NCBI GenBank assembly: GCA_021160245.1
Contig: JAGHCW010000242.1
Span: 1-19,451, forward strand
Direction: 5' to 3'
DNA from: a bacterium
Lineage (GTDB): Bacteria; B130-G9
Length of the DNA: 19,451 nt
The number at the start of each line of letters is the position of its first letter. Positions within the stretch are counted from its first letter, which is position 1. Positions 13,109 through 17,058 of this stretch are shown in pieces. The position numbers and the translations under genes were made by a program. Below the pieces are notes generated by a model. The model saw only the letters and a list, made by a program, of their open reading frames with translations, was not told the origin of the DNA and did no database searches.

Positions 13109-13529
13109 CTAGATCGTGCTTCCTTCTATGTGATTGTGACGGTCGTAATCGTTCTCTCGAATGACTCCTCCATGGCCGGCTCCAGGCGACTCAACGCGGC
13201 TCCGTCGTTCTTGCACAATCAGGAGTTTTCGTAATCATTGGTTTTGTCTGTTGGGGGTTGGGGCTTGTGGGTCACTCATGGGCAGTGCTTCGTTCCCTGG
13301 AGGGGGACCACAATAGCCTGATCAGAAGTTGCACCTACGGCTACTATTGTTTTCGTCCCTCTGGGGCGAAGATGTCCATCGACATTCAACGCAACAATCC
13401 AAGCCCTTCAGCAACCCACGAGATGAATACGGAAACTCCTCACGGATTGCGCCTCTTGCCTTGCCGCCCGTGGGCTGTTAGTTTCTACTAATCTTGGACC
13501 ACATCATAAGAAAGGACTAAAAAAGCGCT
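13109..13529. other. Spacer between tex and selD
   Basis: I see no convincing gene in these 421 bases. A 77-codon frame at 13258-13491 has a poor start and an odd composition. An imperfect inverted repeat is present: caatagcc near 13311-13318 pairs with ggct-act-attg near 13338-13349, making a stem-loop of about 40 nt with an unpaired insertion. Another plus-strand frame through 13329-13427 reads VAPTATIVFVPLG, then CPSTFNATIQ, which does not begin with a start codon. It may be a dispersed intergenic element. The selD leader starts at the 3' end, with AAAGGA at about 13511-13516. Confidence 0.4.
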
Positions 13530-14597
13530 GTGACCAAAGATGAGAGAGCGGAGATTCAAGAGAGACTGACCGCCTCGGTGGCGGGGGCTGGGTGAGCGTC
13601 TAAGCTAGGTCCGGGTGACCTATTAGAGGCTCTCTGTGGACTTCCGCTGAAGAAGGACCCGAATATCATTGCGGGGCCATCGATTGAGCACGCCGAGGAT
13701 GCTGGCGTTTATCGATTGACGGATGAGATCGCGCTCGTTCAAACGATCGATTTCTTCACGCCCATCGTTGACGATCCATTCACTTTTGGCCAGATAGCCG
13801 CCGCGAATGCGCTCAGCGATCTCTATGCGATGGGTGCGAGGCCTCTCTCTGCGCTGAACCTCGTCTGTTTCCCGAGCAAGAAGATGGAGATTGACGTCCT
13901 GCGGCGCGTCCTGTTGGGGGGCCTCAATAAGGTACACGAGGCGGGCGCCGTGTTGCTTGGCGGTCATTCCATCGACGATCCCGAGATAAAATATGGGCTT
14001 GCGGTTACGGGCCTCGCTCATCCCGATAAGATAGTCAGAAACAACACCGCTAAGGTCGGCGACAAGCTCATCTTGACCAAGCCAATTGGCACCGGTGTTA
14101 TCTCCACGGCGGTAAAGGGGGGGCTTGTCGATGAACGAGGCGCGGCTAAGGTCGCACAGACTATGGCAATGCTCAATAAAGGCGCTGCCGAGGCCATGAT
14201 AAAGGTTGGAGTCAATGCCTGCACGGACGTAACGGGCTTTGGGCTTGTGGGCCACCTCACTGAGATGATGTCCGAGGATAGATTCGGCGTGCGCCTCGAT
14301 CTTGATTCTCTTCCGTTGATGGACGGCGCGGTCGATTTCATGCGTCAGAAAATCGCTCCAGGGGGCTTATTCCGCAATCGGAAGTTCTGGGGAGACAGGA
14401 TCATTCCGGACGACGAGGTTCCCCAAGAGATATTCAATCTTCTCTTCGACCCACAGACTTCGGGAGGCCTTTTGATCGCCGTCGAATGCGCAAAATGCGA
14501 CCTCCTCCGGCGCGAGCTCGCACTAGCTAACGTTGCTACTATCGCCGAGATTGGCGAGATCATACCTGAACCTATCGGGCGTCTCATAGTGAGATAG
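13530..14597 (+). CDS. selD: Selenophosphate synthetase, itself a selenoprotein (Sec22 encoded by UGA)
   Basis: SelD makes selenophosphate from selenide and ATP, the selenium donor for Sec-tRNA and 2-selenouridine. Translation from GTG 13530 gives 21 residues ending VAGAG, an in-frame UGA at 13593-13595, then ASKLGPGDL and an uninterrupted SelD body. The UGA falls exactly where E. coli SelD has Cys17, and the conserved Lys is three residues on, as in the family. ANALSDLYAMGARP, LGGHSIDDPEIKYGLAVTG, KPIGTG, DVTGFGLVGHL and DPQTSGGL are all present. Read through, the protein is about 355 residues, normal for SelD; starting after the UGA removes the catalytic loop. The stop at 13518-13520 leaves GTG 13530 as the first possible start. 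A SECIS-like hairpin follows the UGA. selA, selB and selC must lie elsewhere. Confidence 0.93.
13594..13632 (+). promoter_or_regulatory. Bacterial SECIS hairpin for UGA recoding in selD
   Basis: Immediately 3' of the UGA the RNA folds into a long hairpin. The apical stem TAGGTC (13606-13611) pairs perfectly with GACCTA (13617-13622) around loop CGGGT. Below it a two-base bulge GC (13604-13605) separates CTAA (13600-13603), paired with TTAG (13623-13626). The stem continues with GCGT against AGGC (one G-G mismatch) and GA against TC. The loop begins 16 nt after the UGA and is rich in G, as in bacterial SECIS elements recognised by SelB. The fold was found by eye and its energy was not computed. 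Confidence 0.82.
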
Positions 14598-14692: not shown

Positions 14693-16165
14693 ATGAGAAA
14701 AGCAACCGCAATCTATATTGTCGGGGTCCTTATCGCCTGCGCATTTATGGTCGGTTTCTGGATGGCATCCCGCGACGCAGTGTCAGTCCGAGCCGCGGCG
14801 CCTTCCGAGGCGCTTGCTCAGACGACGGATTCCGCGCCGGAATTAGCCATGACTCCCCACACATTTCGGGATGTGGCCAAGAGAGTCAGCCCGGCTGTTG
14901 TCAGCATAACGTTTAGAAAGGCCGTTAAGACCTCCAGAACCTCATCTCCATTCTGGTTTTTTCAGGACCAATTCGGATTCGGGAGACCCGGGCGGCGTCA
15001 GAGGCAGCCGAAGGAGCAAGAGCATTGGAGCACTGGCGGTGGAACGGGCTTCATCATCGACAAGTCCGGCTTGATCCTAACAAATAACCATGTAGTTGCT
15101 GACGCTGATGAGATAGACGTGAAGCTATTAGATGACAGGGAGTATAGGGCTGAAGTAGTTGGACGGGACCCGCAAACCGATGTGGCATTGATCAGAATAG
15201 ACGCTGGCGAGGACCTACCGGTAGCCGCTCTCGGGGATTCCTCTAAGCTCCAGGTGGGCGATTGGGTTTTGGCCATCGGCAATCCCTTTGGCTATGACCA
15301 CTCCGTTACGGTGGGAGTCGTCAGCGCCAAGGGGCGTCAGATCGGAGCGGGCAACTACGACCGCTTCATCCAGACGGACGCCTCAATCAATCCGGGCAAC
15401 TCCGGGGGCCCACTCATTAACATCTACGGCGAGGTGATTGGGATCAACACTGCAATTGCGGGACTCAGAACCGGTATCGGATTCGCGGTTCCCATCAACA
15501 TGGCCACAGCCATAATCCCAGATTTGAAAGAGCACGGTGAGGTCATTCGCGCTTGGCTGGGTGTTATGATTCAGCCCATCACACCGGACTTCCAGGAATC
15601 GCTCAACCTCGAGAAGCGCGAGGGCGCGCTTGTGTCGGAGGTTGTCGCGGATAGCCCGGCCGAAGAAGCCGGCTTGGAGATCGGCGACGTTATCATTGAA
15701 TTTGACGGTCAGCCTGTGAAGTCGTCACAGCAGCTTCCGGAAATGGTTAGTCTATTGCCCGTGGGCAAGAAGGTGAAACTACAGGTCATCCGCGATGGCA
15801 AGACCAAGAAACTGCGGGCCAAGCTGGCCCAGAAGCCCTCATCAGAGGTCGCAGAAAAGCGTGAAGGAAAGGAGCGCGAAGGGTTGGGTCTTACTGTTCG
15901 CGACTTAAGTCCCGAGACAATCAAGCGATTTGGCTTGCCGGTTAACATGCAGGGCGCAATCGTTACCGATGTTAGGTTCAAGAGCCCGGCTGAGCGAGCC
16001 GGGATAAAAGAAAGCGACATAATCCTCAAGATTGGGTGGAAGCAGGTAAAAGACGCGAATCATTTTTACAGACTCATCGCAGAACTTGAGCCCGGCACAC
16101 ACCTAGTCCTGATATACCGAGCTGGGAATCAGTTTTTCGTTACGGTTGACATTAAGGACGAGTAA
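14693..16165 (+). CDS. HtrA/DegP-type periplasmic serine protease with two PDZ domains
   Basis: A Do-family protease/chaperone that degrades misfolded envelope proteins. The 490-residue product has an N-terminal membrane anchor or signal (about residues 4-25, AIYIVGVLIACAFMVGFW). The trypsin-like domain has triad His133 (TNNHVV), Asp163 (QTDVALI) and Ser237 (GNSGGPL). PDZ1 starts near WLGVMIQPI, and PDZ2 starts near GLTVRDLSPE with the carboxylate-binding-type loop; the total is typical for DegP/MucD. A linker rich in R and Q lies between signal and protease. ATG 14693 is used because AGAGGGG ends 9 nt upstream; a TTG at 14669 is possible. Its stop overlaps the start of the next gene as TAATG. 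Confidence 0.93.
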   Translation: MRKATAIYIVGVLIACAFMVGFWMASRDAVSVRAAAPSEALAQTTDSAPELAMTPHTFRDVAKRVSPAVVSITFRKAVKTSRTSSPFWFFQDQFGFGRPGRRQRQPKEQEHWSTGGGTGFIIDKSGLILTNNHVVADADEIDVKLLDDREYRAEVVGRDPQTDVALIRIDAGEDLPVAALGDSSKLQVGDWVLAIGNPFGYDHSVTVGVVSAKGRQIGAGNYDRFIQTDASINPGNSGGPLINIYGEVIGINTAIAGLRTGIGFAVPINMATAIIPDLKEHGEVIRAWLGVMIQPITPDFQESLNLEKREGALVSEVVADSPAEEAGLEIGDVIIEFDGQPVKSSQQLPEMVSLLPVGKKVKLQVIRDGKTKKLRAKLAQKPSSEVAEKREGKEREGLGLTVRDLSPETIKRFGLPVNMQGAIVTDVRFKSPAERAGIKESDIILKIGWKQVKDANHFYRLIAELEPGTHLVLIYRAGNQFFVTVDIKDE

Positions 16166-17058
16166 TGAGCTCTCACTTGGGACCGAGATTCAAAGGCGTT
16201 CTGAGCTTTCTGATAGTCCTTTCGGTCTTCTTCTCAAGCATCGTGTTTGTGCTCAGAAAGAGCGATGCGATGGTGGAGAGCTATAAGTTTCGCAGTGATA
16301 TGGTATTTGTGCCGTCGCCAGCCCTTACGAAGATCGCTTGCCTGGGTTTCGACAACCTGCTCTCGGACCTTCTTTGGCTTCGGACTATAATGTACGTCCA
16401 TAATCAACAGAAGGGCGCCAAGCGCTTCAGTTGGCTGAAGCAGATGCTCGACGTGGTGACTGAACTTGATCCCTATCCATGCGATATATATGAACGAGGC
16501 GGCGCTTGGCTGTATCAGGACGCCGAGAGGCCCAACGATGGCGTGAGATTCTTCCAGAAGGGCATTAGGAATGTACCTCAGACCGCAAAAACGAAGTGGA
16601 AGCTCGCGTACCATCTAGGCCAGTGCTTCCGCAATGTCCTATACGACGAGAAAGACGCCACTCGCTATTTCGAGATGGCCATGAAGATGCCCGACGCGCC
16701 TAAAGTCCTAATGGTGGCCGTGGCAGCCGGATACGAGCGGCAAGGGCTCTTTGACAAGGCGCAGAAGCTTTGGGAAAAGACCCGAGAGACGACCGGTGAC
16801 CCTAACATCGCCCGCGCGGCGGACGACAAGATCAGGTTTATTGAGGATACGAGGCAGGCGATTGAGTCGCTACAACAGAAGGTCAATCAATTCCAAGATA
16901 AGTTTGGCCATCCGCCTGATGATCTCCAAGCTCTGGTTGACGCCGGCTACATCCCAAGCGTTCCCGAGCCGCCACTTTTAGGCAAATACGAGTTTGATCA
17001 ATCGGAGGGCAGAGTGCGCTACCTCTTCATCCCACAGGAACTTGCGGGACTACATTGA
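16165..17058 (+). CDS. Membrane-anchored TPR-like protein of unknown function
   Basis: I do not recognise a specific function. The 297-residue protein has one N-terminal transmembrane segment (about 11-30) after a short basic tail. A conserved-looking FDNLLSDLLWLRTI segment follows, and then helical repeats of TPR type: ELDPYPCDIYERGGAWLY, GVRFFQKGIRNVP, KWKLAYHLGQCF, ATRYFEMAMKMP, AAGYERQGLFDKA. It ends with a coiled-coil-like stretch (ESLQQKVNQFQDKF) and a compact tail. Most of the protein should face the periplasm, judging from the charge pattern, but that is inference. The start overlaps the HtrA stop (TAATG), and its own stop overlaps the next start, so it is probably co-translated with both neighbours. 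This supports an envelope role. Confidence 0.8.
   Translation: MSSHLGPRFKGVLSFLIVLSVFFSSIVFVLRKSDAMVESYKFRSDMVFVPSPALTKIACLGFDNLLSDLLWLRTIMYVHNQQKGAKRFSWLKQMLDVVTELDPYPCDIYERGGAWLYQDAERPNDGVRFFQKGIRNVPQTAKTKWKLAYHLGQCFRNVLYDEKDATRYFEMAMKMPDAPKVLMVAVAAGYERQGLFDKAQKLWEKTRETTGDPNIARAADDKIRFIEDTRQAIESLQQKVNQFQDKFGHPPDDLQALVDAGYIPSVPEPPLLGKYEFDQSEGRVRYLFIPQELAGLH

Follow-up and report, generated by a model that had tools for sequence, protein, structure and literature searches.

A selD gene with an in-frame UGA at the selenocysteine position in a genome that also carries selA, selB, and selC

The 19,451-nucleotide contig analyzed here (the window) carries a gene for SelD (selenide, water dikinase) that is crossed by one in-frame TGA. 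We conclude that this is almost certainly an ordinary selenocysteine (Sec)-type selD gene, in which UGA would be decoded as the catalytic Sec through SelB, tRNA-Sec(UCA), and a hairpin. The gene occupies positions 13530..14597 of the + strand, and the TGA read as Sec stands at 13593..13595.

The first-pass annotation had proposed that a UGA at this codon hides the true start of a selD gene with a normal total length near 355 residues. Translation showed a frame that runs continuously from a GTG at 13530 to the stop codon at 14595-14597, with the TGA as its sole interruption, and read-through gives a 355-aa product in which residue 22 is Sec and whose N-terminal sequence is VTKDERAEIQERLTASVAGAGUASKLGPGDLLEALCG. 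By eye only, GAAAGGA at 13510-13516 is a possible ribosome-binding site. The product belongs to the SelD family as claimed, since it scored 370.5 bits against the TIGR00476 profile (E 6e-111; cut-off, 125). We aligned it with the Cys-type SelD chain of PDB 3u0o, which matched residues 10-354 (E 1.4e-72) and placed the UGA opposite the Cys of HGAGCGCK, so that the codon does sit at the Cys/Sec position of the active site. E. coli SelD likewise has Cys at this site. The predicted Lys three residues further on is K25, which completes a UxxK motif with U22 (...LTASVAGAGUASKLGPGDL...), a motif tabulated for Sec-type SelD (PMC13188914). Under translation table 11, the open reading frame that follows the TGA has its first start at TTG 13716 and encodes 293 aa. 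A standard gene caller would thus lose the N terminus, as anticipated, and misannotation of selenoprotein genes owing to their UGA is a known problem (PMC4561486).

In order to evaluate the conservation of the codon, we compared related SelD loci with a readable Sec site. TGA was present in 100 of 109 loci and a Cys codon (TGC or TGT) in the other 9, and no other codon was seen; because a Sec-type query was used to find these loci by similarity, the 100:9 ratio is not a population frequency. Among 60 genomes searched, two relatives from the same family had a full-length SelD (69% and 66% identity), both with TGA inside the match, and a third family genome (83% complete) showed distant paralogues only. 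These comparisons exclude a chance in-frame TGA: homology to SelD extends upstream of the codon, and the codon itself has been conserved in many lineages. Some of the distant genomes (G024, G034, G035, and G047) contain at least two full selD genes, several of them of the UGA type, and in G047 two UGA-type selD genes adjoin a longer open frame of 745 aa without a UGA.

A SECIS-like stem-loop overlaps and follows the UGA (13591..13635, + strand). Its apical stem pairs 13606-13611 with 13617-13622 around the loop 13612-13616 (CGGGU), and a bulge lies at 13604-13605. The RNA from 13590 to 13640 folded with -21.1 kcal/mol (z, -2.1), and 8 of 200 shuffled sequences folded equally well. The apical stem, AGGUC-CGGGU-GACCU, occupies nucleotides 15 to 29 when the U of UGA is taken as 1. 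Since much of this stem also encodes GPGD, we took synonymous recoding with each gene's own codon usage as the null for apical pairing. Across 46 UGA loci, thinned for relatedness, a mean of 4.11 of the five apical pairs was formed, compared to 3.08 expected (standard deviation, 0.11), a value reached in none of 1,000 randomizations; slid pairings, used as a comparison, gave 1.0 to 2.7. In contrast, the 8 Cys loci showed no excess (2.25 pairs versus 2.19 expected). The selD gene of the window forms 5 of 5 apical pairs, which is modest evidence when taken alone, as 4% of its synonymous variants do the same. Codon choice was also skewed in loci not thinned for relatedness: the Gly codon in the stem was GGT in 62 of 76 loci, versus 588 of 2,931 Gly codons elsewhere, and an Ile codon preceding it was ATA in 25 of 50, versus 335 of 1,914 elsewhere (Fisher P = 2.5e-7). 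In the two family relatives, the hairpin was not the minimum-free-energy fold of the 54-nucleotide stretch, but all five apical pairs could still form. Together, these results support the view that the hairpin is a SECIS element under selection in UGA-type selD genes, and, by analogy with the E. coli system, it would be bound by SelB.

The UGA had been taken to imply a full Sec machinery, and its presence was borne out when we searched the genome for selA, selB, and selC (3.43 Mb in 244 contigs, the window being contig 157; 94.8% complete, 1.8% contamination). The genome encodes a 497-aa SelA and a 674-aa SelB that scored above the NCBIfam cut-off and has the C-terminal winged helix. One match to the tRNA-Sec model exceeded the Rfam gathering score and carries a TCA anticodon; the 16 other matches all fell below the cut-off, and the best four of these were Ser, Arg, and Leu tRNAs. 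The absence of selB and selC, which the first-pass annotation had named as grounds for rejecting its proposal, is therefore not what the genome shows. All three genes sit on contigs other than the window's, and because the assembly is fragmented, a binning error is conceivable. Within the window itself, an Rfam scan gave no match at gathering scores and ARAGORN detected no tRNA, selC being located on another contig.

We considered other readings of the TGA. The TGA might reflect a sequencing error, or selD might be a pseudogene in which a Cys codon has mutated to a stop; a single change from TGC or TGT would be enough, and Cys-type SelD genes do exist. However, the TGA recurs at the same codon in 100 of the 109 related loci, from independent assemblies, the frame is otherwise open throughout its 355 aa, and selection acts on the hairpin in UGA-type genes, which leaves this reading extremely improbable. 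It is equally improbable that translation truly starts after the UGA, at TTG 13716, to yield a product without the N terminus: the 293-aa frame does exist there, but such a product would lack 62 residues, including the active-site Sec/Cys and Lys, and the lost segment aligns with other SelD proteins in a genome that has SelA, SelB, and tRNA-Sec for UGA decoding.

The residue inserted at the UGA is not visible from the sequence alone, so that an ordinary amino acid could in principle be incorporated through suppression or a changed genetic code. We give this reading almost no weight, given that the remaining genes in the window either terminate normally or require no read-through of a TGA, that a dedicated tRNA-Sec(UCA) is present along with SelA and SelB, and that Cys, the analogue of Sec, is the only alternative found among relatives. 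Codon conservation and the presence of the Sec machinery were the grounds for rejecting all of these readings: sequencing error, pseudogene formation, restart at 13716, and a changed code.

In the preferred reading, decoding of the UGA as Sec, the E. coli system serves as the analogy for SelB binding, UGA decoding, and catalysis in this organism. SelB carrying Sec-tRNA-Sec(UCA) would bind the hairpin just past the UGA of selD, and the UGA would be decoded as the Sec that acts as the catalytic residue. SelD would then convert selenide and ATP to selenophosphate, which SelA would use to convert Ser-tRNA-Sec to Sec-tRNA-Sec, itself required in turn for making SelD. This self-dependence, already pointed out in the first-pass annotation, is real but was already known for Sec-type SelD.

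We also looked for other selenoproteins in a partial search of the genome that covered a few families. The formate dehydrogenase alpha subunit (contig C6, 1617-3626, - strand) has a Cys codon and no UGA at the presumed Sec site (ARLCHSS). Genome matches to AhpC/Prx (peroxiredoxin-like), thioredoxin, FlpD, and CCG contained no in-frame stop; neither MnmH (YbbB, selenouridine synthase) nor HesB-like proteins were found in the genome; and a GRDB search gave no match in this genome and none in the control genomes either. When the window and the surroundings of selA, selB, and selC were scanned for TGA read-through, no second convincing candidate emerged, as judged by eye. SelD is reported to be the single selenoprotein of the genome in several YbbB-containing species (PMC1794560). 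Our literature search found no paper on the selenoproteome of Coatesbacteria. It is possible, though we consider it unlikely, that this organism has no or hardly any selenoproteins besides SelD and lacks MnmH, so that the Sec machinery would serve largely to make SelD, or SelD would serve another use of selenium. That SelD stands nearly alone is a hint and not a demonstration, as the known prokaryotic selenoprotein families number more than 110 (PMC13188914) and our search covered a few of them.

Elsewhere in the window, the riboflavin synthase frame (142-930) contains a near-duplicated stretch, AFGYSLSEETSGAFGFFLSEET, at 391-470 that resembles a short tandem duplication within the frame or an oddity of the assembly. 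The predicted N terminus of a RibBA-like frame carries a short tandem repeat (1052-1090). A 297-aa protein encoded at 16165-17058, flanked by a DegP-like protease and a polysaccharide pyruvyl transferase, had no Pfam match at an E value of 0.001.

That SelD can have Sec at this site has long been established. The observation of a UGA in selD is confirmed, and the sequence comparisons support the interpretation first put on it, which is right; the feature itself is an ordinary case of a well-known kind. The window's SelD resembles the Sec-containing bacterial SelD proteins of TIGR00476 in family, UGA position, UxxK motif, length, the hairpin past the UGA, and the genomic presence of selA, selB, and selC, and we found no difference from them. 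It shares whole-length homology with Cys-type SelD (the PDB 3u0o chain) but has Sec in place of Cys, and the tested Cys-type loci lack the pairing excess past the codon. The gene is thus an additional member of the Sec-containing group; a selD gene that a standard caller would shorten is now corrected, and the finding documents the use of Sec in a bacterial lineage that has been sparsely sampled.
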